Source of the DNA: Betaproteobacteria bacterium
Lineage (GTDB): Bacteria; Pseudomonadota; Gammaproteobacteria; Burkholderiales; Casimicrobiaceae
Assembly: GCA_018971195.1 (NCBI GenBank)
Contig: JAGXBK010000007.1
Span: 1-43,674, forward strand
Direction: 5' to 3'
DNA length: 43,674 nucleotides
Numbering within the stretch: position 1 is the first letter of the stretch; every line of letters starts with the position of its first letter. Made by a program: the position numbers and the translations under genes. A model generated the notes under the pieces. That model ran no database searches. It was not told where the DNA came from and saw only the letters and a program-made list of their open reading frames with translations. Positions 14,492 through 33,002 of this stretch are shown here, piece by piece.

Positions 14492-14769
14492 CAGTGATAG
14501 TCCTCTAAGTCAACTTCGATGGCGTCCTCGCCTTCGAATGCAATCGTGATTCGCAAATTGCCGGTAACGCTCACGGCGTAGGTGTCGGCGCGATCGCCCT
14601 TGAGTCGGTGGAATCGATAGCCGGGCAGGTTCATGTCATCGGGCCGGACAGAGGCTTCGAGGCGGTCTAACAGGCGTTCGATCCGGGCTGCGCTGCGTGC
14701 CGGGATTCCGCGATGGTCGCCGCGTCGAAAGAACCGCTCCAATCCCTTGTGCTTGAATCCCTGGATCAT
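14491..14769 (-). CDS. higB: HigB/GraT-type toxin (RelE superfamily)
   Basis: Ribosome-dependent mRNA interferase of a type II toxin-antitoxin pair, 92 residues, the normal length. MIQGFKHKGLERFFRRG at the start, PGYRFHRLKGDRADTYAVSV in the middle and LRITIAFEGEDAIEV at the end are typical of the HigB/GraT branch. The C-terminal EDYH contributes the conserved catalytic-site histidine. It lies first in the operon with higA and probably shares a promoter overlapped by the palindrome at 14789-14803. Its place just behind a tRNA gene fits a mobile or stabilising module. Confidence 0.92.
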   Translation of the reverse strand: MIQGFKHKGLERFFRRGDHRGIPARSAARIERLLDRLEASVRPDDMNLPGYRFHRLKGDRADTYAVSVTGNLRITIAFEGEDAIEVDLEDYH

Positions 14770-14899: not shown

Positions 14900-16252
14900 T
14901 CACTCATGACGCGAGGTTCGCGTAAGCGGCGCCGCGTAGGGGTCTTCCTCGATCGCGGTGCCCCGGTGCAGGGCTGCATGATAGATCGACTGCGGCCGGA
15001 TCGCGCGCGAGACGTGGTACGCCGCCAGGCACGACAGCATCAGTGCCGGGACGAGCTGGTACTCCAGTGTCATCTCGAACACGATCAGAAACGACATCAG
15101 CGGCGCATGCGTGGTCGCGGCCAGGAACGCACCCATGCCGATCACCGCGTAGACGGCCGGCAGCGACGAGCCCGGCCACAGCGCATGTGCGGCGCTGCCG
15201 GCCAGCAGGCCCAGCAGGGCGCCGACAAAGATCGTCGGTGTGAACACACCGCCCACCGCACCCGAGCCGGAGGTGGCCGCCGTGGCAACGATCTTGGCGA
15301 TCAGCACCGCAGCGACCAGTGCGAGCGGCCAAGGATGCTGCAGTACGTCGTTGACGACGCTGTAGCCGTTGCCCCATACCTCGGGCCACCCGATCGACAC
15401 TGCGCCGACCACCAGTCCCCCCAGCGCCAGCTTCATCGGCAGGCCCAGCGGCAGCCGCGCGACCAGACGGCGTGCGCCGTCCAGCGTGAACATGAACAAA
15501 GGTGCCAACCCACCCAGCGTCAGGCCCATCAGCAGGAACAGCGGCAGCTCCCACAGCGAGGCCACGTGCAGCGGCGGAATCGTGTACACCGGCGCGTAGC
15601 CCAGCGCCTGGTGTACGGTGACCTCGGCCACGACCGAAGCCACCATCAGCGGCCCGAGGCGACGGATCGCCAGCGTGCCGTAGATGACTTCGGCGATGAA
15701 GATCGCGCCCGACAGCGCCGCGTCGTAGGCCGAAGCGAAGCCCGCGGCGGCGCCGCAGGCCAGCAACAGGCGCAGATCGTCGCCGTCGAAGCGCCCGATC
15801 CGGCCGATCCACGAGCCGGTGGCCGCCGCGAGTTGCACCATCGCGCCTTCGCGACCGATCGAGCCGCCGGAACCGATGGTGCATAGCGAGGACAGGCTGC
15901 GCAGCAGGGTGCCGCGCACGTCCTGACGGCCGTCGCCGACGGCGATCGCCTCGAGATAGTCGGCCTGCTTGCTGCCGTTGGCGGCCCGTTGCGCCAGCCA
16001 CAGGAACACGCCCGCCACGATGCCGCCCAGTGCCGGCGTGATCGCGCGTCGCCACGGTGCAAGTGCCTTGGCAGCGCTGACCAGGCTGCCAGGATGCTGG
16101 GTGGCCACGCGCTCGGCGAAGGCCATGCCCTCGTGAAAGGCCACCGTCGCCAGCGCGCCGACCACACCGATCAGTGCCGCCCACAGCAGCAGCCAGCGGT
16201 CGTCGCCCTGATAGCCCGCGGCATGCGGCGCGGGTCGCGCATGTTTTTTCAG
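14900..16252 (-). CDS. ClC-family chloride channel or H+/Cl- antiporter
   Basis: Polytopic inner-membrane anion transporter, about 420-450 residues depending on the start. GSGGSIGREGAMVQLA holds the GREG selectivity motif with the gating glutamate, and SGSGAVGGVFTPTIFVGA is the GxFxP motif of helix N. The GSGIP motif of helix C is replaced by NGSKQADYLEA, as in some ClcB-like members. Helix B (RWLLLWAALIGVVGALATVA) straddles the first possible GTG (16165), so that start would cut the helix. Upstream the frame is open but has no ATG, GTG or TTG; the coordinates here use CTG 16252, followed by KKHARPAP. An ATT at 16267 or a sequence error are alternatives. It follows the kinase gene with little or no gap, so translation is probably coupled. 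It may export or exchange chloride during acid stress. Confidence 0.85.
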   Translation of the reverse strand: MKKHARPAPHAAGYQGDDRWLLLWAALIGVVGALATVAFHEGMAFAERVATQHPGSLVSAAKALAPWRRAITPALGGIVAGVFLWLAQRAANGSKQADYLEAIAVGDGRQDVRGTLLRSLSSLCTIGSGGSIGREGAMVQLAAATGSWIGRIGRFDGDDLRLLLACGAAAGFASAYDAALSGAIFIAEVIYGTLAIRRLGPLMVASVVAEVTVHQALGYAPVYTIPPLHVASLWELPLFLLMGLTLGGLAPLFMFTLDGARRLVARLPLGLPMKLALGGLVVGAVSIGWPEVWGNGYSVVNDVLQHPWPLALVAAVLIAKIVATAATSGSGAVGGVFTPTIFVGALLGLLAGSAAHALWPGSSLPAVYAVIGMGAFLAATTHAPLMSFLIVFEMTLEYQLVPALMLSCLAAYHVSRAIRPQSIYHAALHRGTAIEEDPYAAPLTRTSRHE

Positions 16253-16259: not shown

Positions 16260-18146
16260 TCACGAATCCAGTCCCGGCGCCACGGTCAGCGCGACGCTGA
16301 TCGTGGTACCCTGTTGCGGCGCGCTCTGGATGGCGAGGACCGCCCCGATCAGCTGTGCCTGCTCATGCAGGCCCGCGAGGCCATAGTGCCCCGAATGGGG
16401 GGCCTTCACGTCGAAACCAACGCCATTGTCCGCGATGGTCAGTGTCAAGCCGCGGCCGTCGGGCGGCTCGCGCAGCGAGATCGTAACGCGCGTCGCGCCG
16501 GCGTGGCGCTCGATGTTGCGCATCGCTTCTTCGGCGATCCGGAACAGCGTCTCCGCTCGTTCATCGGCAAACGCACCGGCCTGCGCGTCGCTGGTGTAAT
16601 CGACCGCGATGCCGGTGCGTTCGACGAACAACTTGACAAAATCGCCCAGCGCCGAGGCGAGCCCCACATCGCGTACCGGATTGAAGCGCATCTGGCTAAT
16701 CGCGGCGCGGGCTTCGATCAGGCCTTGATGGGCGGTTTCCTCGGCGCGCGCCAGTTCCTCCGCGAGCGCTTCGGGATTGGTGACCAACAGCCTCTTCAGA
16801 AGCCGAATCTCCGTTAGCATCGCCATCATGGAATGCGCCAGGGTGTCATGCAGGTCGCGCGCGATCTTCAGACGCTCGCGCACCACGGCGGCATAGCGCG
16901 CCAGCTCCCCCAGTCGTTCGATTTCACGGGTTCGCGCGGCCACGCGCTGATCCAGTTCGGCGTTCAAGGTCTGCAAGGCGCTGCGTTCGCGCTGCAGTGA
17001 GGCGAGCAGATCGTCCAGTGCCTGTCCCAGTCGCGCCGCCTCGTTCCGGCCGGGTGGAACGGCGATTCTCTGCGTAGCACCGGTTCGGACCGCATCGGCC
17101 GAGTGGGCGATGGCTTCGAGCGCGCGAGTCAGGTGGCGTGCCAGCAGGGTTCCGAGCAGAGCGGCGAACAGCCCCAGGCCGAGCAGTACGGCTGCGATCT
17201 GACCTTGCAGGGTCCTGGCGCGGCGAGCAGCGTCATGCAATGGCTGGCGCACCACGACACGCCAGCCCAGGGCATGCAAGGCGTCCGATGCTGCCGGCGC
17301 AGCGCGCGCGATGAGATAACCGCTGCCATCCTCCGGACCATCCACACGCGTGGGACGCTCGACCGTGCCCGTTGGCCTATTGACCGCAACGACCGGCATC
17401 GCGGCGTCGGTCGATTCAGCGGTAGGTTCCCACCGCTTGCCTGCGAGGCCCGGAGGTCCGATCAACACCGTGCCATCGCGGTCCAGCAGCAGCGCTTCGG
17501 TGTCGGTCGATCCCCGCAGCGCCTGCCCCAGACTACCGGCGAGATCCAGCAGCCAGCGCCGTCTCAGTCGCGTACCGATTACGCCAACCGTGGCTCCCTT
17601 GGCATCGGTGACCGACGCGATCAGGTCCACGAAATGCCCGGGGGCGCCGTCGATGGTCGTAGTCGGCATCTTTGCAGCACCAGGCGCCAGTTGCACATCG
17701 CCGGTACTTGAACGCTTCAGTCCCAGCACGAACCACGACCGATCGGCAACGCTTGCACCTTCCCGCAACCCCTGCGTGGCGGCCACGATGCGACCTTGCG
17801 CATTCGCCACGCCGATCCACGTGAATTCGGGGGAAGCCCGCTGCAGGTTCTCGAGGCTCATTCGCAGCGTCGCCGGGTTTTCGTCGCCAAGATCGGTGGC
17901 GAGCAGTGCGGCCAACGCGTGCATCGATTGCATCCGGAGCGCGAGATTGAGATTCAATTCGGCAACGACACGGTCGGCCGTCCGCTCCAATTGCCGCTCG
18001 CGCTGTTCAAGGAGGTCGTCGCGGACCATGTCGCCGAGCCATAGGCTGGCAACCAGCACCAGACCAATCGATAATGCGAACACCAGCCAGCCGATGGCGG
18101 CAGCCAGGCTGCGGCGCGGGTCGAGGTAGCGGGGCAGCGGGGGCAT
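16260..18146 (-). CDS. Membrane sensor histidine kinase (NarX/DesK-type transmitter)
   Basis: A 628-residue sensor kinase, from ATG 18146 (an in-frame TTG at 18176 is the alternative). It has a transmembrane helix at about 14-38, then a roughly 280-residue periplasmic double-Cache-like sensor (for example WIGVANAQGRIVAATQG and ADRSWFVLGL). A second helix follows at about 320-342, then HAMP, a coiled coil (QTLNAELDQRVAARTREI) and a HisKA_3 domain with the phospho-acceptor His433 in ARDLHDTLAHSM. The ATPase boxes are EEAMRNIERHAGA and ADNGVGFD. Such kinases pair with LuxR-type regulators, and one is encoded divergently 350 bases away. The Cache fold usually binds small ligands; the signal here is unknown. 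The ClC gene follows directly. Confidence 0.93.
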   Translation of the reverse strand: MPPLPRYLDPRRSLAAAIGWLVFALSIGLVLVASLWLGDMVRDDLLEQRERQLERTADRVVAELNLNLALRMQSMHALAALLATDLGDENPATLRMSLENLQRASPEFTWIGVANAQGRIVAATQGLREGASVADRSWFVLGLKRSSTGDVQLAPGAAKMPTTTIDGAPGHFVDLIASVTDAKGATVGVIGTRLRRRWLLDLAGSLGQALRGSTDTEALLLDRDGTVLIGPPGLAGKRWEPTAESTDAAMPVVAVNRPTGTVERPTRVDGPEDGSGYLIARAAPAASDALHALGWRVVVRQPLHDAARRARTLQGQIAAVLLGLGLFAALLGTLLARHLTRALEAIAHSADAVRTGATQRIAVPPGRNEAARLGQALDDLLASLQRERSALQTLNAELDQRVAARTREIERLGELARYAAVVRERLKIARDLHDTLAHSMMAMLTEIRLLKRLLVTNPEALAEELARAEETAHQGLIEARAAISQMRFNPVRDVGLASALGDFVKLFVERTGIAVDYTSDAQAGAFADERAETLFRIAEEAMRNIERHAGATRVTISLREPPDGRGLTLTIADNGVGFDVKAPHSGHYGLAGLHEQAQLIGAVLAIQSAPQQGTTISVALTVAPGLDS

Positions 18147-18162
18147 GAGGGTTCGACAGTCA

Positions 18163-18175
18163 TGCCAGTATGGCA
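18163..18175. promoter_or_regulatory. Small inverted repeat in the kinase/regulator intergenic region
   Basis: TGCCA-GTA-TGGCA lies 17 bases upstream of the kinase ATG, in the 157-base divergent intergenic region. It could be an operator. No convincing promoter hexamers were found beside it. Confidence 0.35.
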
Positions 18176-18303
18176 AGTGACGAAAGTAACATCAAACTGA
18201 TGACCGGTGGCTCTATCACGGCGGCGCTGCGTTACGTAGATTCGGCGCATGGAGGGGAATTCCGGTCGTTTCCGTTGATGCTCCGGCGCGAGGACACTTT
18301 GAA

Positions 18304-18495
18304 GTGGATGAGCTGATTCAACTGGTCGCGCAGAGGGCTGGAATCTCCTCCGCCCAATCGAGGCTCGCCGTCTCGACGATCCTGAACTATCTGACGGCGC
18401 GGCTGCCGTCTCCCGTGGTCGGGCGCATCCGCGAGCAATTGGGTGATGTCGGCAGCGCCGGCGGACCGGATGCCGCGCAAGGACGTGTCAAGTGA
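18304..18495 (+). CDS. Small helical protein (DUF2780/DUF2267-like)
   Basis: A 63-residue protein from a GTG start. MDELIQLVAQRAGISSAQ then AVSTILNYLTARLPSPVVG predicts three helices. It resembles the small DUF2780/DUF2267-type domains (LIQ..R.GIS...A..A....L..LP) of unknown function. The last four bases overlap the start of the response-regulator gene (GTGA), so the two are translationally coupled. No signal peptide or membrane segment is present. A modulator of the two-component system is possible from context alone. Confidence 0.65.
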   Translation: MDELIQLVAQRAGISSAQSRLAVSTILNYLTARLPSPVVGRIREQLGDVGSAGGPDAAQGRVK

Positions 18496-19241
18496 CTGTG
18501 ACGGCGTCGCGCGAGCCGCCTCGCATCCGGGTGCTCGTTGTCGACGATCAGGCCCTGATCCGCCGCGGCATGACGTTGATGCTTTCGGTCGAGCCGGACA
18601 TCGAGGTCGTGGGCCAGGCATGCGACGGCGTGGAAGCGGTCGAGATGGCGGGGCACCTGCGTCCCGATGTGGTGCTGATGGATCTGCATATGCCGCGCAA
18701 GGGCGGCGTGGCCGCCACGCGCGAAATCACGCTGTCGCTGCCGCACACGCGCGTGCTGGTGCTCACGACGCTGGACGCTGACGAGACGGTCTTCGAAGCC
18801 GTCCGCGCTGGCGCCCATGCCTACCTGCTGAAGGACGCCAGCGAAGAGGAGGTGCTCGAAACGGTGCGTGCGGTGCACCGCGGCGAGTCGAGGCTCACCC
18901 CGCAGATTGCGCGCAAGGTGATGGACCAGTTCTTGCGGCTTGCGTCTCCGATCGACGCTCCCCACGCGCGGACTGCGGCGAGCACCTGTGCGGTCCCGAG
19001 CAATGGCGCGGGGACTGCACCGATCAGAACGAACGATCCGACGGCCGAGGCGCTCAGCGACAAAGAGGAGCGGATCCTGAGCCTCATCGCCGAGGGCAAG
19101 AGCAACAAGCAGATTGCCGCCGCGGTGTTCCTCGCCGAGGGCACCGTCAAGAACTATGTAAGCCGCATCATGGACAAGCTCCACGCCAATACGCGCACCG
19201 AGCTTGCCGTGATGTCGCTGCGCCAGCGACGCGGCCACTGA
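18492..19241 (+). CDS. LuxR/NarL-type response regulator
   Basis: A 249-residue DNA-binding regulator. The receiver domain at about 11-127 has the acidic pair in VLVVDDQALIRRG, the phospho-acceptor aspartate in VVLMDLHMPRKGG, the switch threonine in VLVLTTLD and the lysine in AYLLKDASEEE. A variable linker precedes the C-terminal GerE helix-turn-helix at about 188-245 (LSDKEERILSLIAEGKSN, then GTVKNYVSRIMDKLHA). The linker of about 60 residues, with Ser/Thr and Ala, is long for the family. It starts at GTG 18492 inside the stop of the small upstream gene. Its likely kinase is the divergent one, and its likely target is the operon starting at 19507, preceded by a perfect inverted repeat. Confidence 0.94.
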   Translation: MTVTASREPPRIRVLVVDDQALIRRGMTLMLSVEPDIEVVGQACDGVEAVEMAGHLRPDVVLMDLHMPRKGGVAATREITLSLPHTRVLVLTTLDADETVFEAVRAGAHAYLLKDASEEEVLETVRAVHRGESRLTPQIARKVMDQFLRLASPIDAPHARTAASTCAVPSNGAGTAPIRTNDPTAEALSDKEERILSLIAEGKSNKQIAAAVFLAEGTVKNYVSRIMDKLHANTRTELAVMSLRQRRGH

Positions 19242-19350
19242 CGCAGTTGCCAGCGGTGCCGGCGTGGACGCGCCGCCGGCGCTGTCCTCGCCGACGCCTG
19301 ACGCGCATCGCCCGGCGCATGGAAGTCCCAGCGGCGCAGCGATGACCTTG

Positions 19351-19392
19351 GTCACGTTCACATCGTGACTTCCCGCAGTCCCAGATCGTGAC
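19351..19392 (+). promoter_or_regulatory. Inverted plus direct repeat upstream of the stress operon
   Basis: GTCACG-N7-CGTGAC (19351-19369) is a perfect inverted repeat, and its right arm ATCGTGAC recurs 23 bases later (19385-19392). It lies 115-156 bases before the first gene of the operon and upstream of a weak -35/-10 pair (TTACCT 19403, TAGAGT 19425, spacing 16). This fits an activator site for the neighbouring response regulator; binding is inferred. Confidence 0.5.
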
Positions 19393-19506
19393 CTTCAGCA
19401 GCTTACCTGCGGTCGAACGATGGCTAGAGTTCAAGCCATGGACGCGCAGACGAAGTCAGGACCGCGACGTCCGATCCAGGGAACTCAACCTACCAAGGAC
19501 CCCATC

Positions 19507-20064
19507 ATGACCACGACCAAGACCAAAACCGATATTGCCGTTGCAGTCTACGACCTCCATACCCAGGCCGAAACCGCCGTCAAGGCGCTGCAACGCGCCG
19601 GATTCGACATGAAGAAAATCTCGATCATCGGCAGGGACTACCACACCGAGCAACATGTAATCGGCTTCCTCAACGCGGGCGATCGGGCCAAGGTCTTCGG
19701 CAAGTTCGGCGCATTCTGGGGTGGGTTGATGGGCGTGCTGTTCGGTTCCGCGTTGATGTTCGTCCCGGTGGTGGGCCACGTGATCATTCTCGGCCCGCTC
19801 GCTGCTGCTATCTTCGGCGGTCTGGAGGGCGCCGTATTGGTCGGCGGCATCAGTGCCCTTGCAGGCGCCTTGATGGCCGTCGGAATCCCCAGGGACTCCG
19901 TGTTGCGCTACGAAACCGCGCTGAAAGCCGACAAGTTCATGCTGGTCGTCCACGGCGACGCGCAGGAAATCAAGCATGCACACGAACTGCTGGAGACGTC
20001 GGGTCTTTCCTCGTTCGACCATCACCACATCCACGACGAAGCCGCTTTGACGGCGCATCCGTAA
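19507..20064 (+). CDS. DUF1269/YflT-like stress membrane protein
   Basis: A 185-residue protein from ATG 19507, preceded by AAGGA. The N-terminal 50 residues (DIAVAVYDLHTQAETAVKAL, then ISIIGRD) form the small ferredoxin-like domain seen in YflT/general-stress-17M proteins. A long hydrophobic centre at about 75-130 has two or three glycine-rich helices (WGGLMGVLFGSALMFVPVVG and GGISALAGALMAVG). The tail holds VLRYETALKADKFMLVVHG and a histidine-rich end (FDHHHIHDE) that might bind metal. It is the first gene of a seven-gene operon, 34 bases before the next. An inner-membrane location is predicted; biochemical function is unknown. Confidence 0.75.
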   Translation: MTTTKTKTDIAVAVYDLHTQAETAVKALQRAGFDMKKISIIGRDYHTEQHVIGFLNAGDRAKVFGKFGAFWGGLMGVLFGSALMFVPVVGHVIILGPLAAAIFGGLEGAVLVGGISALAGALMAVGIPRDSVLRYETALKADKFMLVVHGDAQEIKHAHELLETSGLSSFDHHHIHDEAALTAHP

Positions 20065-20098
20065 TCGGCAACGTCCCCCGCGACGAAAGGAGTGCATC

Positions 20099-21217
20099 AT
20101 GAAACTTACCCTCAAGCCCATTGCCCTGGCAGTCCTGGCCGCGACGACCCCGCTCGCCGGCGTGGCGTACGGGCAGGCGCCGAAGGCGCCGGCGGCAGCG
20201 ATCGTCAAGCCCGCGCCGGCGCCGAGCAAGGCGTTGATCGCGACCAAGGCGCCGGAAGACTGGATCATCTACGAAGACACCACCTACATGCCCGTGGTCG
20301 ACCCAGTCAGTCGGCATCTGTATGCGGCGCGCAAGGCCTTCGACGCGAAAGACGACAAGACCGCCGCTGCCGACCTTCGCACGGTGGCGCAGGAGCTGAA
20401 TGCCCTGTCCCTCCAGGCAACCCGCATCAGCAGGAGCGGCACCAAGGCCGAGATCAGGCTCGCGCGGGACAGCGCCAAGCGCATCGAGCGGGCGAGCAGG
20501 AAGGTGAATGCCGCGGCGGCGGCACTGGAAGCGGGGAAGATCACGACCCGCGCGGAGTTGGACAAGGCGATCGACAAGGCCACGCGGGCCGATATGGAGC
20601 GTCGCTGGCTGGTGACCGACGTTGCCACCCGGTACCCGCTGAGTGACGAGCCGCAACGCCACTTCGCCGGCGCCGTTGCTGCGTTTGGCGGCAAGGACTA
20701 CAAGGCCGCGGCGATCGACATCCGCAAGGCCGCGGGCTACATGAGGCTCGAATCCGCTCGCGCCACCGGGGAAGCCAGGCAGGAGCTCGACCGCTCGGTC
20801 GCGCAACTCGACCGACTCGCGACGTCGGTGGAGAAAGGAGCGGTCAAGGACGAGAAGACGATGGACAAGGCATTCGCCAACGCCAATCACGCGCTCGCGC
20901 TGGAACATCGGGCCAATGCCGCCGAATCGTGGGCGCGCAAGGAGTACGACCAGGCCGGCGACGAGCTCAAGGCGGCTGCCAAGGGTCTGGCGAGCGGAGC
21001 TGGCTGGGTAAGCGCGCAAGCGAAGGCAGATGCCTCGGCCACAGTGGCGGAAACCGACGCCTTGGGTGACAAGCTCGCCTCCGGCGCCACCTGGACGCGC
21101 GACGAGGTCGCCAAGGACTTCGCATCACTGGGCAACAGCATCGATGCGCTGGGCCAGAAGGCCGGTAGCAGCGCGAAGGCACCGCCGGTCAAAGTCGGCG
21201 CTGCAGGCCGAGCGTAA
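20099..21217 (+). CDS. Periplasmic helical repeat protein, function unknown
   Basis: A 372-residue exported protein: a signal peptide at about 1-25 (LALAVLAATTPLAGVAYGQA) is followed by an Ala/Pro/Lys-rich linker and then an almost all-helical body. Two similar halves can be seen: HLYAARKAFDAKDDKTAAAD at about 75 and HFAGAVAAFGGKDYKAAAID at about 188. Each is followed by a charged amphipathic helix and a DKAIDKA / DKAFANAN turn, which suggests an internal duplication. The C-terminal 90 residues are a further Ala-rich, apolipoprotein-like helix. The composition recalls YfdX-type periplasmic stress proteins, but I do not see a firm match. A good ribosome-binding site (AAAGGAG) precedes the ATG. 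Only 23 bases separate it from the patatin gene. Confidence 0.7.
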   Translation: MKLTLKPIALAVLAATTPLAGVAYGQAPKAPAAAIVKPAPAPSKALIATKAPEDWIIYEDTTYMPVVDPVSRHLYAARKAFDAKDDKTAAADLRTVAQELNALSLQATRISRSGTKAEIRLARDSAKRIERASRKVNAAAAALEAGKITTRAELDKAIDKATRADMERRWLVTDVATRYPLSDEPQRHFAGAVAAFGGKDYKAAAIDIRKAAGYMRLESARATGEARQELDRSVAQLDRLATSVEKGAVKDEKTMDKAFANANHALALEHRANAAESWARKEYDQAGDELKAAAKGLASGAGWVSAQAKADASATVAETDALGDKLASGATWTRDEVAKDFASLGNSIDALGQKAGSSAKAPPVKVGAAGRA

Positions 21218-21240
21218 CCCAAGGCCCATATCGAGTACAC

Positions 21241-22404
21241 ATGAACAAGCGCACGCATTCAGCAATACCGCGACGCAAGGAAGAGCGCATTCTCGTGCTG
21301 CAAGGTGGTGGTGCACTGGGTGCCTACCAAGCCGGAGTCTACGAGACCTTGGCCGCAGCAGGCGAGATGCCACACTGGGTAGCGGGGATCTCGATTGGTG
21401 CGATCAATGCCGCGCTGATCGCCGGCAATCCACCCGATCGGCGTGTGCAGCGACTGCACGACTTCTGGGATGCGGTGACATCCTCGAGCGCCCTGTTTGT
21501 GCCTCCGGTCGCGCCGCCTGTCGAGTTGCGCAGCGCGTTCAACGATGCCAGCGCGGCAATGGGAGCCACGTTCGGACTGCCCGGCTTTTTCTCGCCGCGA
21601 GTGCCGGCAGCGCCGTTTCAGCTGCCCGGTACGGCAGGCGCATTGAGCTTCTACGACACGGCGCCGCTACGGACAACGCTGGAGCGGCTCGTGGATTTCG
21701 ATCTGCTCAACAGCGGGTCGACGCGCTTGTCGGTCGGCGCAGTCGACGTGCGAACCGGAAACTTCGCCTACTTCGATACCATCAACCAGCGCCTGGATGC
21801 GCGCCACATCATGGCCAGCGGCGCCCTGCCGCCGGGGTTTCCGCCGATCGAGATCGATGGCGAGCTGTATTGGGACGGTGGTCTCGTTTCGAACACGCCC
21901 TTGCAGTACGTGCTCGACCAACCCGAAGTGGCCAACAGGCTGGTGTTCCAGGTGGACCTGTTCGTTGCCGAGGGACCCGTGCCAACCAACCTGGTCCAGG
22001 TCGCCGAGCGCGAGAAAGACATTCGATTTTCCAGTCGCACGCGACTCAACACCACGAATGCGCTGGCCCGCCACGCCCTGACCCAGGCTGCGCGCAGATT
22101 GGTCGCGAAGCTGCCGCCCAACCTGGCGAGCGACCCCGATCTGCAAGCCCTCAAGGCGGCCAGTCGCGAAGCCGCCGTCACCGTCGTACATCTGATCTAC
22201 CGGCGCAAGCGCTATGAAAGCCAGTCGAAGGACTTCGAATTCTCAAGGCTATCAATGCAGGAGCACTGGCAGGCGGGGTGCGCCGACACGGCCCACACGC
22301 TCAGCCATCCCGATTGGCGCGCGAGAACCCCACCCCAGGACGGCGTCCACGTTTTCGACTTGACACGCAGTCGAATGCCCCACCCATCGAAGGCCCGCTC
22401 ATGA
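21241..22404 (+). CDS. Patatin-like phospholipase with C-terminal DUF3734-type region
   Basis: A serine lipid acyl hydrolase, 387 residues. The oxyanion loop [15 protein letters not shown] begins at about residue 21, the nucleophile Ser51 sits in GISIG, and the partner aspartate Asp212 in WDGGLVSN completes the Ser-Asp dyad. The C-terminal part ([17 protein letters not shown] at about 318) matches the extension of the bacterial patatins found beside 3-hydroxybutyrate/acetoacetate genes, suggesting a role in lipid or polyhydroxybutyrate metabolism. There is no signal peptide, so it acts in the cytosol or at the membrane. Its stop overlaps the acetoacetate decarboxylase start (ATGA), so the two are coupled. 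Confidence 0.92.
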
Positions 22405-23153
22405 AAATCGACGCTGTTCGCAAGACCGCATTCGCGATGCCGCTCACGAGTCCCTCGTTCCCGCCGGGGCCGTACCGATTCGTGAACCGCGAGTTCATCA
22501 TCGTTACCTATCGTACCGATCCAGACGCCCTTCGGGCAGTCGTTCCCGAGCCGCTGCAGATCGACGAACCGATCGTCAGGTACGAGTTCATCCGCATGCC
22601 CGACTCCACCGGGTTCGGCGACTACACGGAATCCGGCCAGGTGATCCCGGTGACATTCAAGGACCAGCGCGGTGGCTACGTGCATTCGATGTATCTGAAC
22701 GACGATGCGCCCATCGCCGGCGGCAGGGAGCTGTGGGGATTCCCGAAGAAGCTCGCTTCCCCGTCCGTCCGGGTCGAACGGGATACGTTGCTCGGCACGC
22801 TCGACTACGGACCGGTTCGAGTGGCCACTGCCACCATGGGCTACAAGCATCGGCAGCTCGACCTCGGCGCGGTACGCCAGGCCCTGGCGGCGCCCTCGTT
22901 CCTGCTCAAGATCATTCCGCATGTGGACGGCACGCCGCGCATCTGCGAACTGGTGCGCTATTTCCTCGAGGATGTCGTGGTCAAAGGCGCCTGGACCGGT
23001 CCTGCAGCACTGGAGCTCGCGCACCACGCGTTGGCGCCCGTGGCGCAGTTGCCGGTGCTGGAGGTCATCTCCGGCACTCACATCCTGAGCGATCTGACAC
23101 TCGGCCTCGGCACCGTGGTGTTCGACTACCTCGCGCATCCTCAAGGAGCGTAA
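22401..23153 (+). CDS. adc: Acetoacetate decarboxylase
   Basis: Decarboxylates acetoacetate to acetone and CO2 through a Schiff base, consuming one proton per turnover. The 250 residues are the normal length. [15 protein letters not shown] contains the active-site lysine (Lys116) and the neighbouring Lys117 that lowers its pKa, equivalent to Lys115/Lys116 of the clostridial enzyme. The acid residue of GDYTESGQ at about 77 is also conserved. The start at ATG 22401 overlaps the patatin stop by four bases. The usual partner, a 3-hydroxybutyrate dehydrogenase gene, is absent here; membrane cytochrome genes follow instead. Confidence 0.93.
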
Positions 23154-23213
23154 TCCTGAAACCCGGCGGCAGAGTCTTCCTGGATTCCGGCGCCTGGGTG
23201 GAGGAGCAATGCG

Positions 23214-23402
23214 ATGCAGAACCTGACCATTGAAACGCTGCCAGCGGTGCCACATATCGTGTTCGGCATTTTCGACCTGGCGATACCGAACCTGATCTTC
23301 TGGATTGCCGTGATCTTCGTTTTCTTCGCCGGCTGCTGGGCACGCATGCCGAGCCGCATGACGAAGGGCGCCGCGCCGAAGGACCGGAGGGACGCCGATT
23401 GA
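23214..23402 (+). CDS. Small single-pass membrane protein of the cytochrome b operon
   Basis: A 62-residue protein: a short N-terminus (MQNLTIETLPAVPHIVFGIF) precedes one transmembrane helix at about 20-41 (NLIFWIAVIFVFFAGCWARM) and a basic, probably cytosolic tail. A GGAGGAG sequence precedes the ATG. The stop overlaps the next start (TTGA), so it is coupled to the cytochrome b-like gene and is likely a small subunit of that complex. No known family recognised. Confidence 0.65.
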   Translation: MQNLTIETLPAVPHIVFGIFDLAIPNLIFWIAVIFVFFAGCWARMPSRMTKGAAPKDRRDAD

Positions 23403-24004
23403 ACATCGATGCGAAGCTTCAAGCGTGGCTGAGATCGCACCTGACGCTCGAGGACGCATTGCCGACGCAAATGCCGGTCTACGTCAACTCGATGGCCTAT
23501 TTCTTCGGCACGGCCACCCTCTCGGCGCTGGCGGTCGTCATCGGAAGCGGAATGGTCATCGCCATCTTCGGCCCCGGCTGGTGGCATGTATCGCCGGTGG
23601 GTCACTTTTTCAACTCCGTCCACTTCTGGGCCGTGGAGATCTTCTACTTCGGTCTGGTGCTCCACATGCTCGCGAAGTTCTTCAAGGCCGCGTGGCGTGA
23701 CGGCCGGTGGCGAACCTGGGTGATCGGCCTGGTGACGTTCGCCGTGACGATCTTTTCCGGGATCACCGGGACGCTTTTGCAGGAGAACTGGGACGCCCAA
23801 TGGAACGCCGTTCAGGGCAAGGATCCGATGAACGCCCTCGGCCTTGCCTGGATGAACACGATGGATCCCGGACAGCTTCTCACGCTGCACGTTGCCCTGT
23901 TTCCGTTGCTTATCGTCCTCTTCGCAGCGATCCATATCGCCTTCGTGCGCAGCGAAAGTCCGGTGCGCCCCATCGTGCTCGGCAGCAGGAGGGGCGCGCG
24001 ATGA
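23399..24004 (+). CDS. Cytochrome b6-like di-heme membrane protein
   Basis: A 201-residue protein with four transmembrane helices, matching only the N-terminal half (b6-type) of cytochrome b. Helix B carries two histidines 14 residues apart (SVHFWAVEIFYFGLVLH). Helix D carries two histidines 15 apart (LHVALFPLLIVLFAAIH), the spacing typical of b6f-type rather than mitochondrial bc1-type proteins. A GITGTLLQENWDAQW loop follows helix C, where the quinol-site loop lies. These are signs of a membrane protein that moves electrons to or from quinones across the membrane. The TTG start overlaps the upstream stop, and the end overlaps the next gene (ATGA). No Rieske or cytochrome c gene is nearby. 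Confidence 0.85.
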   Translation: MNIDAKLQAWLRSHLTLEDALPTQMPVYVNSMAYFFGTATLSALAVVIGSGMVIAIFGPGWWHVSPVGHFFNSVHFWAVEIFYFGLVLHMLAKFFKAAWRDGRWRTWVIGLVTFAVTIFSGITGTLLQENWDAQWNAVQGKDPMNALGLAWMNTMDPGQLLTLHVALFPLLIVLFAAIHIAFVRSESPVRPIVLGSRRGAR

Positions 24005-24951
24005 GCACGCGATCGGAGGCGTACCTTCGCGGCGTGCCGATGAAGCGCTATGACATGATCCGCGAGGGGTTGATCGTCCTGGGCGCCGTGACGGCCGTGG
24101 TCGTGCTTCTCGCGGTCAGTTTCGGAACGCCCGACTACCCGACGGTCACGGGAAAGGAGGTTGCGACCAAGCAGCCCATGCTCTTTCTCCAGCGATCGCT
24201 CGCCTACTTTTCGGGGCAAAGCGGCCTTCAAACCTATGGCCCTCCCTACACGAAGCACGACCAGAACGCGCAGGAGGTGTTCGGATTCATCTCGCCGGCT
24301 CGCTGGATCGGAGTCGTGAATCCAGTCGATGCCCGGCACGACCTGGCGATGGATCCGCTCGAACGCATTGCGGTGCTGGACCCGGAGGTGGCGAAGGCGC
24401 TGGCAATCTACACGCATGCTCCGCCCGACCAGCAGCAGCGCTGGATCAAGAGCTACTCCGCTGCCCTGAGGAGAGCCACCGACGACAACGGAAGGGTGGT
24501 GCTCCCGCAGGGCGATTACGGTCCCGTCGCAACCTTGATGAACGGGATGCTCAGCCTCGCGCGCGCCGGGCTGCTCGAAGGGACGCTCGACAGCAGCTCC
24601 CGCCTGCCCTACGACCTCAACAACACGAAGTCCCTCCTTTTTCTCGAGGGTCCGATCGAGAACAACGTCGCGCGCCACCTCAACGAGCTGGGCAATCAGT
24701 GGGGAATGACGAACGAGATGGGGCCCTACCCGGGGGCGTGGTGGCTGTGGTCCTATGCCTTCCTCTATCAGCTACCCGGGATTGCGAGCTCGCCAAACGC
24801 AGACCTCATCGCGGGGCTCATCATGGCCACTGCGTTCCTCGTCCTGATCTTCCTTCCCGTGATCCCCGGCCTCAACCGGATTCCCTACCGGATCCCGGTC
24901 TACCGGCTCATCTGGCGGGATTGGTACAGGCGGTTTGAGGGTCAACCGTAG
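24001..24951 (+). CDS. Cytochrome b operon third subunit, unknown family
   Basis: A 316-residue membrane protein. One helix at about 23-44 (GLIVLGAVTAVVVLLAVSFG) is followed by a large extracytoplasmic domain of about 210 residues and a C-terminal hydrophobic pair at about 240-260 and 270-292 (ADLIAGLIMATAFLVLIFLP). The closing PGLNRIPYRIPVYRLIWRDW resembles the end of subunit IV-like or actinobacterial cytochrome b C-terminal parts. There is no cysteine and no CxxCH, so it carries no c-type heme or iron-sulfur cluster. The start at ATG 24001 overlaps the cytochrome b6-like stop. It is the last gene of the operon and most likely the structural partner that replaces subunit IV. Confidence 0.7.
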   Translation: MSTRSEAYLRGVPMKRYDMIREGLIVLGAVTAVVVLLAVSFGTPDYPTVTGKEVATKQPMLFLQRSLAYFSGQSGLQTYGPPYTKHDQNAQEVFGFISPARWIGVVNPVDARHDLAMDPLERIAVLDPEVAKALAIYTHAPPDQQQRWIKSYSAALRRATDDNGRVVLPQGDYGPVATLMNGMLSLARAGLLEGTLDSSSRLPYDLNNTKSLLFLEGPIENNVARHLNELGNQWGMTNEMGPYPGAWWLWSYAFLYQLPGIASSPNADLIAGLIMATAFLVLIFLPVIPGLNRIPYRIPVYRLIWRDWYRRFEGQP

Positions 24952-24994
24952 CTCCTCCCGAGATTCGGCAATATTGTTCACTGGCCTTTGGGAG

Positions 24995-25010
24995 TGTGGG
25001 GCTCCCCACA
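24995..25010. repeat. Perfect inverted repeat after the cytochrome b operon
   Basis: TGTGGGG-CT-CCCCACA lies 43 bases behind the last operon gene. It could be part of a terminator, but no T-run follows, so a protein site is equally possible. The rest of the 250-base gap shows a ribosome-binding site (AGGAGG) before the next gene and little else. Confidence 0.45.
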
Positions 25011-25201
25011 GAGCAAGGCGCCAGTGGACGCGAAACGGCTGGCCGGGCAGGTGGCGACACGCGGCCTCGGCCGGCGAGACAGCCGAAAAGCTGCCGCGGC
25101 GGCACGCCGGGCGCACGAAAAGCTTCACGGATGGAATATGATCCGGCTGGCCGGGGCGATTGCTCCCGTTTCACTCACCAGGGTCAACATAGGAGGTCTG
25201 C

Positions 25202-26404
25202 ATGAAGCTCGATCGAATCGTCGCCACCTGCGCGGTGGTACTTGCCACCGCGCTCGGCGCTTCCGCCGCCCGCGCGGCTGCGAACGAAGTCGTCATCGGT
25301 GACATCGACGACATGTCCGGGGTCTACGCCGATGTCATCGGCGAAGGAGGGGTCCAGGCTGCGAAGATGGCGATCGCCGACTTCGGTGGCAGCGTACTCG
25401 GCAAGAAGATCGTGTTCATGGACGCCGATCACCAGAACAAGCCCGACGTCGGTGCCGCGAAATTCCGGCAGTGGGCCGACGAGGACGGCGTCAACATGAT
25501 CCTGGGCGGCTCGAACACAGGGGTCAATATCGCGATGTCCAAGGTGGCGGCGCTCAAGAAGGTGCCGTTCATCTCCATCGGAGCTGCCGGCGCCTCGCTG
25601 ACCAACGAGGACTGCACGCCGTACACCGTTCACTACGCCTACGACACCACGTCGCTGGCCAACGGTACCGCGACGACAATCGTCAAGAGCGGCGGCAAGA
25701 AGTGGTTCTTCCTGACCGCCGACTACGCTTTCGGTACCCAGTTACGCGACGCTGCGTCCAAGGTCGTCATCGCGAACGGCGGCACCGTGGTGGGCGAAGC
25801 GCGCGTGCCACTGGCGACGTCGGATTTCTCGTCGTTCCTGCTCACCGCGCAGGCTTCGGGCGCACAGGTGCTGGGGCTGGCGAACGCCGGTGGCGACTTC
25901 ACGAATTCGCTGAAAGCGGCACAGGAGTTCGGGATCGCCAAGACCATGAAGCCGGCGGCGCTGCTGGCCTTCATCAGCGACATCAACGGCCTCGGATTGC
26001 AGGCGGCACAGGGCCTGATCCTGACCACCGGCTGGTACTGGGACCTGAATCCCGAGACGCGGGCCTTCGCCAAGCGCTACTTCGCGGTGACCAAGAAGGA
26101 GCCGACGATGAACCAGGCGGCCTACTACTCGGCGGTCATGCATTACCTGCAGGCGGTCAAGGCCGTCGGTTCGACCGATCCGGACAAGGTGATGGCCGAG
26201 ATGAAGAAGACCAAGATCAACGACTTCTTCGCGAAAGGCGGCTACATTCGCCCCGACGGGCTGATGGTCCACGACATGTACGTCATGCAGGTGAAGACCC
26301 CGGCCGAATCCAAGTACCCGTGGGACTACTACAAGGTCCTGAAGGTCATGCCCGGCGAAGAGGCGTTCGGCCCGATGACCGGTCTGTGCAAATACGCGAA
26401 GTAG
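25202..26404 (+). CDS. ABC transporter substrate-binding protein, branched-chain amino acid type
   Basis: A periplasmic type I binding protein of 400 residues. It has a signal peptide at about 1-26 (VVLATALGASAARA), then VVIGDIDDMSGVYADVIGEG, the first strand of the Leu/Ile/Val-binding fold. GGSNTGVNIAMSK and FLTADYAFGTQL are the ligand-contact regions of the two lobes. Family members bind amino acids, amides, short organic acids or aromatic compounds; the ligand cannot be named. No permease or ATPase gene lies on either side, so it is an orphan that must borrow a transporter or serve as a sensor. AGGAGG precedes the ATG. Confidence 0.9.
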   Translation: MKLDRIVATCAVVLATALGASAARAAANEVVIGDIDDMSGVYADVIGEGGVQAAKMAIADFGGSVLGKKIVFMDADHQNKPDVGAAKFRQWADEDGVNMILGGSNTGVNIAMSKVAALKKVPFISIGAAGASLTNEDCTPYTVHYAYDTTSLANGTATTIVKSGGKKWFFLTADYAFGTQLRDAASKVVIANGGTVVGEARVPLATSDFSSFLLTAQASGAQVLGLANAGGDFTNSLKAAQEFGIAKTMKPAALLAFISDINGLGLQAAQGLILTTGWYWDLNPETRAFAKRYFAVTKKEPTMNQAAYYSAVMHYLQAVKAVGSTDPDKVMAEMKKTKINDFFAKGGYIRPDGLMVHDMYVMQVKTPAESKYPWDYYKVLKVMPGEEAFGPMTGLCKYAK

Positions 26405-26484: not shown

Positions 26485-27195
26485 TCAACCGAGGCAGATC
26501 AGGCCGCCCTTGATCTGCTGGCCGAGCGTCGCTGCATGCGCGAGGCCATAGACCCCGAAACCCAGCACGACGCTGCCCGAGACGAGCCGCGCAGCGCGGC
26601 TCGACAGCCACGCGCGCGAGCGTCGCAGCAGCAGCGCGGCCGCCATCAGGTTGGGAAGGGTGCCCAGGCCGAAGGCGAGCATCAGCGCGGCACCGCTCAA
26701 CGCGTTGCCGGCGAGCAGTGCACCGAAGAGCGCGGTGTAGACGAGCCCGCAGGGCAGCCACCCCCACAGCATGCCCACGGCGAGTGCCTTTGCAGGGCGG
26801 TCGACCGGCAGGAAGCGTCGCGTATGCGGCTTGAAGAGAGACCACAGGTGGCCGCCCAGCCGCTCCAGCCTCGCGATGGGCCCGGGTATGCCGGCAAGGT
26901 ACAGGCCGAGACCGATCAGCAGCAGGTTGGCGAGCACGTAGAGGGCGATCTGCACCGGAACCAGTCCATCGAGCATCAGGCCGAGGCTGCCGAAAGCGCC
27001 CGCGATCGCACCTGCGATGCCATAGCTCGCAATCCGGCCGAGGTTGTAGAAGAGGGGGAGCGACCACGATCCGCCGCTCGCCTTGGTTCCGCCGGTCAGC
27101 GCCGAGACGATGCCGCCGCACATGCCCATGCAGTGGACGCCGCCCACCAGGCCGGTGAACAGCGCGACGCCCAGGACCGCCCACGCGATCGTCAT
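26485..27195 (-). CDS. DsbD_2/SafE-like membrane protein of the cbb3 cluster
   Basis: A 236-residue inner-membrane protein with about six helices. The first helix ends in GGVHCMGMCGG, a Cys/Met/His motif typical of this family and likely to bind copper or a thiol. WGWLPCGLVYTAL in the fourth helix holds a second conserved cysteine. The family (PF13386, often labelled sulfite exporter TauE/SafE or cytochrome c biogenesis) is common at the end of cco clusters and is thought to help copper or thiol supply for cbb3 oxidase assembly. It is the last gene on this strand, 52 bases behind the small membrane protein gene. Confidence 0.85.
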   Translation of the reverse strand: MTIAWAVLGVALFTGLVGGVHCMGMCGGIVSALTGGTKASGGSWSLPLFYNLGRIASYGIAGAIAGAFGSLGLMLDGLVPVQIALYVLANLLLIGLGLYLAGIPGPIARLERLGGHLWSLFKPHTRRFLPVDRPAKALAVGMLWGWLPCGLVYTALFGALLAGNALSGAALMLAFGLGTLPNLMAAALLLRRSRAWLSSRAARLVSGSVVLGFGVYGLAHAATLGQQIKGGLICLG

Positions 27196-27247
27196 CGCCG
27201 CGACGGCGCGAAACGTCGCCCGGGCGTGCGTCGGAGACCCAGTGTGC

Positions 27248-27592
27248 TCAGCGGCACGATGCGTTCTCGTCCGAGCGCTTGGGGCAGCCGAGCGGCCGCG
27301 CCGTCGGCGGCAGGGGGCAGCGGTTGAGCTCCGCCGAGCCGCGCTGGAAGAAACAGGTCAGGCTGCTCGAAAAGGCGGCGAACGCCCAGAACAGGAAGAA
27401 GCCGACCGAATAGGTGGTGATGCGGCTCGCGCCGACAATCGTGCCGAAGAACGGGAGCTCCTCGGGGTCGAAGATGGTGAAGAACAGCGCCTCCGCCACC
27501 CCGGCGGCGATGAATGACGGCCACAGCACCCAGATCAACCTTTGCAGTCTCACTCGCCATTCCTCCTCGTCTGCCCGGATCCCTCGGTCCAT
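27248..27592 (-). CDS. Small two-helix membrane protein of the cbb3 cluster
   Basis: A 114-residue protein from ATG 27592. Two membrane segments lie at about 17-40 (LIWVLWPSFIAAGVAEALFF) and 57-80 (TYSVGFFLFWAFAAFSS), joined by a short acidic loop (DPEELPFFG). A cysteine-containing C-terminal tail follows (LTCFFQRGSAELNRC, then LGCPKRS). It begins four bases after fixH on the same strand, so it belongs to the oxidase accessory operon. I do not recognise a named family. The tail cysteines could bind metal, but this is a guess. Confidence 0.7.
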   Translation of the reverse strand: MDRGIRADEEEWRVRLQRLIWVLWPSFIAAGVAEALFFTIFDPEELPFFGTIVGASRITTYSVGFFLFWAFAAFSSSLTCFFQRGSAELNRCPLPPTARPLGCPKRSDENASCR

Positions 27593-27596
27593 GGCG

Positions 27597-28106
27597 CTAT
27601 TTTGCCGAGGGCTCGAGCACGAAATGGTCATCCTGCGGATGCCAGTCGCCGGTCATGCGCCAGGTTCGGCCCGCGTCCTCAAGATCGATGCCCCAGCGAG
27701 CGGACTTCGCGAGCTGCATGCCGGCCTCGTAGCGTCCGGGCTGGACCTCGCGCACGCGCACGACGTCGTCGAGACCGGCCCGGGTCGGGTGGACGAAGCG
27801 CAATCGCAGGCCGGACGGGAGGGGACTGCCGGTCAACTGGACCCGAAGCATCGTGCGGTCGGGGCTCAGCGTCACGTCGGCGCGATAGTGGCGTTCGAAG
27901 GCCAGGTGGTCGCGCGCCAGCACGCGATTGATTGCCAGGCCCTGCCTGTAGTAGTCGCCGACGACCAGCGCGTCGGCGTGGGTGAGCGCGATGTACAGCG
28001 TCACGAAGCTCGCGACCACGGCGGCTCCCGGAAGTCCGAAGATTATCCAGGGCCAGGGCTCCCGGTACCAGGGGGCGACGGGGTGGCTGGGAACGGGGCG
28101 CGTCAT
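27597..28106 (-). CDS. fixH: FixH/CcoH family assembly protein
   Basis: A cbb3 oxidase assembly factor, 169 residues. An N-terminal transmembrane helix lies at about 20-42 (WIIFGLPGAAVVASFVTLYI). The periplasmic domain has DYYRQGLAINRVLARDHLA, the family hallmark (YYxxGxxIN), and ends GRTWRMTGDWHPQDD. FixH/CcoH acts with FixI in copper delivery and stays with the assembled oxidase in some species. It starts 15 bases behind ccoG and is followed four bases later by the small membrane protein gene. Confidence 0.9.
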   Translation of the reverse strand: MTRPVPSHPVAPWYREPWPWIIFGLPGAAVVASFVTLYIALTHADALVVGDYYRQGLAINRVLARDHLAFERHYRADVTLSPDRTMLRVQLTGSPLPSGLRLRFVHPTRAGLDDVVRVREVQPGRYEAGMQLAKSARWGIDLEDAGRTWRMTGDWHPQDDHFVLEPSAK

Positions 28107-28121
28107 GGCCTTCCTCCGGTA

Positions 28122-29567
28122 TCAGGGAATCACCAGCGTCGCCTTCTCGGCGACCTTGAGGGGCAGGGCGCCCGGGTGCGACGGGTCGGCGGCCTCGACG
28201 GTGAAGACGATCGGCGTCGATTTCTCGCGGATCGAGGCTCGCGGCGCCTCGACGCGCACCGCGACCACGCGCGACGATGCGGGACCGATGTGGATCGGTT
28301 GGTGCTCGGCTTCGAGACTGATGCCATCGACGCCAGAGACCGCGATGCTGACCTCGCGCGGAACCTCCTGCGTGTTCATGATCTGCAGCCGATAGACGTT
28401 CTGCACCTCGGGGTCGTCACCCCCGCGCATCACGTTGCCGCGGTCGCGGATGACGTCGACCTTGAGCGGGACACGGTGATAGAGAGTGATTCCGGCCGCA
28501 AGGATGATCAGCCACAGGATGGCGGTGTAGACGATCACGCGCGGCCGGAAGATCCGCTTCAGGATGCGATCGGCCGTGTAGTGACCGGCCATCGCCTTCT
28601 CGGTGGAGTAGCGGATGAGCCCCCTCGGGTAGCCCATCTTGTCCATCACCTGGTTGCAGCCGTCGATGCACGCGGCACAGCCGATGCACTCGTACTGCAG
28701 TCCGTCGCGGATGTCGATCCCGGTCGGGCAGACCTGCACGCAGATGCTGCAATCAACGCACTCGCCGAGCCCTTTCGCCTTGTAGTCGACGCTCCGGGCG
28801 CGCGATCCCCGCGGATCACCGCGCGCGGAATCGTAGGTGATGATCAGGGTATCGGGATCGAACATCACGCTCTGGAAGCGTGCGTACGGGCACATGTACT
28901 TGCACACCTGCTCGCGCATCCAGCCGGCGTTGCCGTAGGTGGCGAAGCCGTAGAACAGCACCCAGAACGTCTCCCAGGGCCCGAGCCCCAGGCTCAGCAC
29001 CTCGTGGCCGAGGGCCTTGATCGGTGTGAAATAACCGACGAAGGAGAAGCCGGTCCACAGGGCCAGCGCGATCCACAATCCATGCTTTGCCGCCTTCAGC
29101 CGGAGCTTGCGCGCCGACAGTGGCTGCGCGTCGAGCCTCATCCGCGCAAGGCGATCGCCTTCGACCTTGCGCTCGATCCACATGAACATCTCGGTGTAGA
29201 CCGTTTGCGGGCAAGCGAAACCGCACCACAGGCGACCGGCAACGGCAGTGAACAGGAACAGCGAGTAGGCCGAGATGATCAGCAGGACCGTCAGGTACAC
29301 GATGTCCTGCGGCCAGAACACCAGGCCGAAGATGTAGAACTTGCGCGAGACCAGGTCGAACAGCACCGCTTGGCGCCCGTTCCAGGTGAGCCACGGGCCG
29401 CCATAGAAGACGAGCTGCGTCAGCAGCACGAACGTCCAGCGCCACGCCGCGAACCGGCCCTGGACTGCCCGCGGATAGAGCTTCCTCCGGACCTCGTAGA
29501 GGGTCTGCTCGCCCGGATCGAGCGCACCGGCGCCGCCTGCCGCCCCGACCTTCACCGGCGTGTCCAT
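28122..29567 (-). CDS. ccoG: Cytochrome c oxidase accessory protein CcoG (FixG)
   Basis: A polytopic iron-sulfur protein of 481 residues needed for cbb3 maturation; in related bacteria it reduces Cu(II) for use by the oxidase. Five or so membrane helices occupy the N-terminal half, with the FACPQTVYTEMFMWIE motif near residue 115. Two 4Fe-4S clusters are shown by CVDCSICVQVCP and CIGCAACIDGCN at about residues 270-305. The C-terminal 150 residues form the periplasmic Ig-like FixG domain. It lies 57 bases behind ccoP on the same strand. Confidence 0.96.
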   Translation of the reverse strand: MDTPVKVGAAGGAGALDPGEQTLYEVRRKLYPRAVQGRFAAWRWTFVLLTQLVFYGGPWLTWNGRQAVLFDLVSRKFYIFGLVFWPQDIVYLTVLLIISAYSLFLFTAVAGRLWCGFACPQTVYTEMFMWIERKVEGDRLARMRLDAQPLSARKLRLKAAKHGLWIALALWTGFSFVGYFTPIKALGHEVLSLGLGPWETFWVLFYGFATYGNAGWMREQVCKYMCPYARFQSVMFDPDTLIITYDSARGDPRGSRARSVDYKAKGLGECVDCSICVQVCPTGIDIRDGLQYECIGCAACIDGCNQVMDKMGYPRGLIRYSTEKAMAGHYTADRILKRIFRPRVIVYTAILWLIILAAGITLYHRVPLKVDVIRDRGNVMRGGDDPEVQNVYRLQIMNTQEVPREVSIAVSGVDGISLEAEHQPIHIGPASSRVVAVRVEAPRASIREKSTPIVFTVEAADPSHPGALPLKVAEKATLVIP

Positions 29568-29624
29568 TGATTCAGGCGAGGTCCAATCGGCGATCGCTCG
29601 CGCGTGCTCGCGAGGCGGCCGGCC

Positions 29625-30712: not shown

Positions 30713-30713
30713 C

Positions 30714-31340: not shown

Positions 31341-31367
31341 GATGGCAATGACTCGGAAATTGGGGGA

Positions 31368-32944: not shown

Positions 32945-33002
32945 TCGGGCACCGAGGAGCGCGTGCCGTCGCCGCGTTCGGGCGCGAGCCGACGCCGCCG
33001 CG

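Follow-up and report, generated by a model that had tools for sequence, protein, structure and literature searches.

A cluster of seven genes in which a patatin-like lipase, an acetoacetate decarboxylase (ADC) and a cytochrome b-like protein stand beside stress-type proteins raises the question of whether its members form one system. The cluster occupies positions 19507–24951 of a 43,674-nucleotide stretch of DNA (contig JAGXBK010000007.1, here called the window) from a Betaproteobacteria bacterium of the Casimicrobiaceae. All seven open reading frames (ORFs; g1 to g7) lie on the plus strand, with intergenic distances of 34, 23, -4, 60, -4 and -4 bases. The first, g1 (19507–20064; its open frame starts further upstream, with an ATG at 19420), encodes a YflT-domain or ActD-like general stress protein with a hydrophobic middle (Pfam YflT, 3e-8). 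A patatin-like phospholipase of the DUF3734 type is encoded by g3 (21241–22404; Patatin 4e-36, DUF3734 2e-36), an ADC by g4 (22401–23153; Pfam ADC 2e-93, NCBIfam PRK02265 7e-132) and a four-histidine subunit of the cytochrome b/b6 N-terminal type by g6 (23399–24004, TTG start; Pfam cytochrome b 3e-10). No family was assigned in Pfam and NCBIfam scans to g2 (20099–21217), a helical protein with an N-terminal hydrophobic segment, to g5 (23214–23402), a 62-residue membrane protein, or to g7 (24001–24951), which has two hydrophobic segments around a large extramembrane part. The Pfam scan covered the ten proteins of 16260–26404, namely those of the seven genes, the upstream two-component genes and the following substrate-binding protein (SBP) gene. 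An original prediction made from the letters alone is borne out in its family assignments, for which g1, g3, g4 and g6 have Pfam matches, and in its dense layout, with gaps of at most 60 bases and exactly three 4-base overlaps. The gaps between the genes contain no terminator-like sites (four in 18300–25300, against 4.8 expected from shuffles), and the genes might be read as a single transcript.

Assuming that the seven genes work as one unit, they should co-occur elsewhere. The full set was found in no other genome; at most four of the genes plus a remnant of g1 were found, in Sulfuriferula multivorans TTN. At its locus L009 the order is the same as in the window, with g2 at 8316–8978 (65% identity), g5 at 9214–9402 (73%), g6 at 9399–10004 (87%) and g7 at 10001–10945 (82%). 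The g1 remnant precedes g2, a ClC remnant (37 residues at 73%) lies further upstream, a PLD-family gene is also upstream and a cation P-type ATPase gene follows the module. Patatin and ADC genes are missing from the 4–17 kb stretch that was read. Because sub-blocks recur in other genomes with their order kept, the gene arrangement is not due to chance. The seven genes can be read as three modules rather than one known system: g1-g2 with a promoter array, g5-g7, and the patatin-ADC pair. On balance, we favour the reading that they form a composite operon joining a mobile stress core, a cytochrome module and the patatin-ADC pair, and that this operon lies in a block beside a tRNA-Glu gene that is specific to the strain and was probably acquired horizontally.

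When the region preceding g1 was aligned with the Sulfuriferula locus, a shared block emerged that we consider a putative phased operator-promoter (19342–19430, plus strand). It contains a dyad, ATGACCTTGGTCAC, at 19342–19355, three TGAC boxes at 19343, 19366 and 19389, that is in 23-base steps, and a TAGAGT -10-like element at 19425–19430; the first TGAC box belongs to the dyad RTGACCTTGGTCAC. Numbered within the block, TGAC at 19, 42 and 65 and TARAGT at 101 are identical at four sites: in the window, upstream of the g1 remnant and g2 of Sulfuriferula, and in two further genomes, G603 (before g1-g2) and G494 (before g2). A second Sulfuriferula array lies upstream of a cytochrome c gene and is exactly one 23-base unit shorter, with its TGAC boxes at 19 and 42 and its TARAGT at 78. 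The pattern TGAC-N19-TGAC-N32-TARAGT was found in 16 of 95 retrieved loci, which overlap one another and, by their coordinates, reduce to six sites in five genomes. At the sixth site, between a ClC gene and the g2 homologue of genome G676, most other bases are changed, and the distances between the -10 element and the two boxes closest to the start are retained. The longer pattern TGACCTTGGTCAC-N(4-12)-TCGTGAC has a single match in the own genome, two in Sulfuriferula and none among 148 relatives. As a control, three phased boxes were counted in the window, where one set was found and 0.01 expected. Neither the promoter pattern nor the g7 profile was found in viral contigs.

A weak -35 element (TTACMT-like) lies 16 bases before the -10 element, with a box just upstream of it, which in our reading would have the look of an activator-dependent promoter. 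Since the dyad has the form GTGA-N6-TCAC, which we take to resemble a Crp/Fnr-type dyad, the activator need not be the NarL-type regulator encoded next to the operon. In the stretches read by eye, no NarL-type regulator was seen beside other copies of the module; an OmpR-type regulator and a kinase are encoded near the module in G494. The leader after the -10 element (19431–19500) is conserved among the copies, the cytochrome c copy included. None of its nine predicted base pairs shows changes on both sides and Rfam gave no match to it; without such two-sided changes, we claim no RNA structure.

The promoter accompanies the g1-g2 core in different company. It precedes g1-g2 in G603, with no g3, g4, g6 or g7 alongside, g2 in G494, and in G676 a g2 that directly follows a Voltage_CLC gene. 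Searches of 300 genomes of the order found g2 in five: the own genome, these three and G731, which is taken as S. multivorans TTN. The homologues in the four other genomes show 41–64% identity. In G494, several g2 pieces lie on two contigs (L093, L092) and resemble recombination debris. Near g2, both G676 (L094:4041-12476) and G603 (L090:1-9867) carry a glucoamylase-like gene and an HlyD/EmrB-type efflux pair, as judged by eye. The two halves of g2 align with a score of 89, compared with a maximum of 64 in 500 shuffles, and hence g2 contains an internal duplication. Its N-terminal hydrophobic segment suggests that the protein is probably exported. A search of plasmid records with g2 gave no match, and with its predicted model (mean predicted local distance difference test score, pLDDT, 60) no PDB fold was matched at E <= 0.001. 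For g1, identity is 71% to the G603 protein and 45–51% to three plasmid ‘general stress proteins’. A g1 homologue is present in 17 plasmid records, and the three that were opened contain ClC, oleate hydratase, universal stress protein, ornithine decarboxylase or P-type ATPase genes within 6 kb of it, consistent with the predicted stress association. The g1 protein also matches Pfam ActD at 8e-5, below the ActD cut-off, and no further Act subunit of Alternative complex III was found among the ten proteins scanned.

The patatin-ADC pair has a different distribution. The g3 protein contains GISIG and DGG; the motifs GxSxG and DGG form the catalytic dyad of patatin-like phospholipases. The g4 protein contains a Lys-Lys pair in ELWGFPKKL, which we take to be the ADC active site. 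A patatin of Rhizobium ruizarguesonis that is 54% identical to g3 precedes an ADC gene, with an overlap that is likewise of 4 bases, and a 3-hydroxybutyrate dehydrogenase (HBDH) gene follows. Among the matches listed, g4 shows up to 77.6% identity to plasmid proteins. ADC was matched in 81 plasmid records; in 19 of the 30 listed, a patatin is named under the ADC match, and a listed Mesorhizobium record without patatin has ADC alone. Seventeen of 100 relatives encode ADC; nine of them belong to the 22 genomes of the genus, the own one included and with one match partial. Four relatives were opened: by ORF reading, G006 and G470 carry the patatin-ADC-HBDH triple, and in G005 and G018 ADC stands without an adjacent patatin. 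A Burkholderia multivorans region (L012) bore no annotation and was left aside. The pair is thus widespread and separate, and in several genomes 3-hydroxybutyrate dehydrogenase follows it. In Bradyrhizobium, blr7028-blr7029 (ADC and dehydrogenase) have been placed in polyhydroxybutyrate (PHB) metabolism (PMC4070704). Directly after the window's ADC there is no HBDH gene and g5 is found instead; the search for HBDH was confined to this position. An anti-phage role of the patatin was considered and rejected: the match to a phospholipase of the cyclic-oligonucleotide-based anti-phage signalling system (CBASS) reached 41.7 bits against an NCBIfam cut-off of 200, and PADLOC gave a similar result.

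These distributions bear on the integrated acid-stress system of the original prediction, in which ADC would consume protons, patatin remodel lipids, the cytochrome b tune quinone redox and ClC swap chloride and protons under the control of the adjacent two-component system. The dense operon fits such a system, as do the ClC genes adjoining here and in G676, a Caballeronia g1 homologue near genes for ClC, ornithine decarboxylase and a basic amino acid antiporter, and the cation P-type ATPase after the Sulfuriferula copy. However, patatin-ADC is not in the Sulfuriferula stretch and is common elsewhere without the other genes, and no NarL-type gene was seen by eye beside the other copies in the stretches read. 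In addition, S. multivorans TTN is listed in the available part of its description as growing at pH 5.3–8.6 (PMC6397845), so an acidophile setting is not required. We therefore regard this system as unlikely. As a single acid pathway the prediction is not supported. The outcome that it named as its refutation, a lack of co-occurrence of the seven genes elsewhere, largely holds: patatin-ADC is a separate pair, g1-g2 stands without g3, g4, g6 and g7 beside it in G603, and g5-g7 is known to us from two genomes only. Acid specificity is one of several options and unproven.

The third module, g5-g7, is of a split cytochrome b type with four histidines and has no adjacent Rieske gene. The two histidine pairs of g6, His75/His89 (14 apart) and His164/His179 (15 apart), are all conserved in Sulfuriferula, and g6 matches cytochrome b6 and the cytochrome b of 6kls. 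Its best NCBIfam match is ExtP of selenite/tellurite reduction operons, at 41.8 bits and below the cut-off of 290. The hydrophobic segments of g7 were placed by hydropathy at residues 23–41 and 270–288. Its C-terminus matches Pfam Cytochrom_B_C at E 0.39 (residues 247–307) and b6f subunit IV (PDB 2e74_B) at E 3.3 (residues 248–304), a likeness that is suggestive only. PEWY is the quinol-site motif of cytochrome bc1/b6f. No PEW is present in g6 or g7; PGAWW occurs at residue 244 of g7, close to where the weak match to subunit IV begins. There is no CxxCH in g1, g2, g5, g6 or g7 and no cysteine in g6 or g7. Neither a Rieske protein nor a c-type cytochrome was found in the search for them, which was confined to the ten scanned proteins.

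Within the searches made, g5-g7 was found in two genomes only, the own one and S. multivorans TTN. Of the 398 genomes in a phylum sample, the g7 gene was found in the own one alone, and of the 18 in the Sulfuriferula family in TTN alone. It was matched in two of 61 genomes of a relatives sample, the own one and G003, where the match (27%, E 5.5e-6) was taken as chance and the locus reads as tripartite ATP-independent periplasmic (TRAP) transporter genes. A match in G533 contig 5 (E 0.094) was likewise taken as chance. No g7 was found in 72,556 plasmid records at E 1e-5, or in G603, G494 and G676 at E 0.1. A scan of genome contigs with six exact peptide patterns, which misses distant relatives, returned 21 stretches with one confirmed relative, again S. 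multivorans TTN. A g6 match in G030 was set aside, as its neighbourhood appears by eye to be split-cytochrome-b-like with a CxxCH partner; g6 was also matched in G046.

Judged from the genes themselves, the composite operon might work as follows. Its core would be a mobile stress module, in which an activator-type promoter with GTGAC boxes drives the membrane stress protein g1 and the probably exported g2. The split cytochrome b module g5-g7 would stand under the same promoter. Products of g6 and g7 may make up a di-haem membrane complex able to react with quinone and to exchange electrons with a periplasmic cytochrome c. A hint at a candidate redox partner comes from Sulfuriferula, where a small cytochrome c gene (L009:4835-5329; SoxA-TsdA domain 2e-12, one CxxCH) has its own shorter array, the second copy of the promoter. 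Patatin-ADC would be a lipid/PHB-ketone pair inserted between the core and the cytochrome genes; g3 is predicted to hydrolyse acyl esters, and g4 to convert acetoacetate to acetone and CO2 with use of a proton. Stress-coupled electron transfer is our best inference for g5-g7. A bolder and tentative extension is that a mobile regulon exists in the order to which Sulfuriferula belongs, with the GTGAC operator array inducing stress proteins and exchangeable electron-transfer cassettes. We know of no earlier description of this array, for which no search of the literature was made. The cassettes would include a new Rieske-less two-subunit cytochrome b complex that links quinone and a co-regulated cytochrome c during stress. 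The same cytochrome c could instead point to a sulfur- or metal-related module, in which it oxidises thiosulfate or a similar donor together with g5-g7. Its SoxA/TsdA domain, the shared promoter, the ExtP match of g6 and the description, in the available part of the source, of Sulfuriferula as a sulfur oxidiser (PMC6397845) are consistent with this, but within the Sulfuriferula family only TTN carries the module and g7 has no recognised family in Pfam or NCBIfam, which makes such a role improbable.

Several observations weigh against the composite operon as we describe it. The G676 array has neither the dyad nor the first box, and the two dyad-like matches of G676 are found elsewhere. In the window the dyad alone is not enriched (six matches with at most three mismatches, 3.0 expected), and a sigma-70 consensus scan of 18300–25300 flags no promoter-like site, the array included. 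G494 has a further g2 copy, a fragmentary one on contig 103, that no array accompanies, and conservation among close copies may come partly from shared descent. A distance of 235 bases separates g2 from g5 in Sulfuriferula, so a second promoter is possible there; patatin-ADC may also have been lost in Sulfuriferula instead of inserted in the window. The link of g7 to subunit IV is below any threshold, and the Sulfuriferula g7 has no such Pfam match. Profile comparison with an actinobacterial cytochrome b leaves the g7 C-terminus unaligned, and the predicted g7 model is poor (pLDDT 37.6) and was excluded from the fold search.

The setting of the locus is variable. The region around a tRNA-Ala/tRNA-Glu pair is matched at the DNA level in most genomes of the genus sample, and tRNA-Glu (13963–14038, plus strand; ARAGORN) forms one edge of the interval that holds the block. 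Beyond it, all seven fetched relatives carry genes other than the window's, based on ORFs of at least 150–220 residues read by eye, a size at which small genes may be missed, and on contigs of which two of seven end within 4 kb. In the closest relative at this locus (G016, 94%) the contig ends within about 300 bases. Because the inspected relatives carry other genes after tRNA-Glu, the block, which is absent from them, is located in a variable interval. In G007 a lexA-like gene starts about 0.6 kb after tRNA-Glu, and by eye a similar one is found in the window at about 38.4 kb. Between the block and that gene, ORF reading shows a cbb3-oxidase-like cluster with assembly genes on the minus strand (26485–35725). 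The SBP gene was rejected as a right-hand anchor for an empty-site test, as its matches outside the window reach only about 65–67% over most of the gene and the own genome has a paralogue. A phage-capsid-like ORF of G010 (L055:10441-11502), about 2.3 kb from tRNA-Glu, hints at an integration hotspot.

Between tRNA-Glu and the operon follow a HigB-like toxin and helix-turn-helix antitoxin pair (14171–14769, minus strand; ORFs 14171–14491 and 14491–14769; HigB-like_toxin 4e-14, HTH_3 1e-10), a ClC chloride channel/antiporter gene (14900–16165, minus; 46% identity to the G676 Voltage_CLC protein, Pfam 6e-70), a sensor histidine kinase gene (16260–18176, minus; HisKA_3 and HATPase, with dCache and HAMP sub-threshold) and a gene for a NarL/LuxR-type response regulator (18492–19241, plus; Response_reg 3e-24, GerE 3e-18). 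The two-component system and ClC named in the original prediction are thus present; of these genes, only the response regulator gene points towards the operon, and the kinase and ClC genes point away. Such a region could hold a loose collection of modules that lie side by side, share a transcript only via read-through and have no joint function. The related loci are modular, with remnants of g1, g2 and ClC, the region differs among relatives, and patatin-ADC is an independent pair. Nevertheless, g1 and/or g2 occur with the same array in five genomes, and the order g2-g5-g6-g7 is kept at 65–87% identity between two families; a loose collection seems doubtful to us. The composite operon that we favour is a patchwork, and its new leads are the operator array and the rare cytochrome module. 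It would offer a testable handle on how stress islands are assembled, with a portable promoter and two stress proteins gaining different redox or metabolic passengers. As a cytochrome b lineage, g5-g7 would be uncharacterised and lack the usual partner proteins. The array enables a search for its activator and the remaining regulon.

In the literature searched, including the available parts of PMC6127331, PMC3759415, PMC8290217, PMC4070704 and PMC6397845, no description of the seven-gene set or of g5-g7 was found, in agreement with the claim that no such system had been described. Compared with cytochrome b6f/bc1, g6 has two histidine pairs at cytochrome b spacing and the two adjacent genes recall b6 and subunit IV; in contrast, PGAWW stands for PEWY, no Rieske protein is encoded among the scanned neighbours, CxxCH is lacking and g7 has its large extramembrane part. 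Adjacent patatin and ADC genes with a 4-base overlap are shared with the patatin-ADC-HBDH operon of Rhizobium and Bradyrhizobium, whereas the window's pair has no following dehydrogenase and lies inside a stress/cytochrome operon. According to the available part of its description (PMC6127331), the lxa locus of Burkholderia cenocepacia is a low-oxygen locus that combines stress proteins with a cytochrome c and with phbB, an acetoacetyl-CoA reductase; it has six universal stress proteins, while the window has none among the ten scanned proteins, and the terms ‘patatin’ and ‘acetoacetate decarboxylase’ do not occur in that paper. The ‘cytochrome b N-terminal domain’ genes of actinobacterial plasmids (Streptomyces, Pseudarthrobacter) align with g6 over 166 columns (hhalign probability 97%), but they encode one longer protein of about 370 residues with no g7 match. 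On the Streptomyces sp. F2 plasmid (L008:1-12564) the cytochrome b gene lies between FtsH and metal P-type ATPase genes, and similar genes are found on three other actinobacterial plasmids. From the transmissible locus of stress tolerance (tLST), the operon differs in that the core dna-hsp20-clpG is not among the ten proteins scanned and in that g2 has no match to Pfam YfdX up to E 10, where HMMER filters may hide weak ones. What it has in common with tLST is the character of a mobile stress island with membrane and, in tLST, periplasmic stress proteins.

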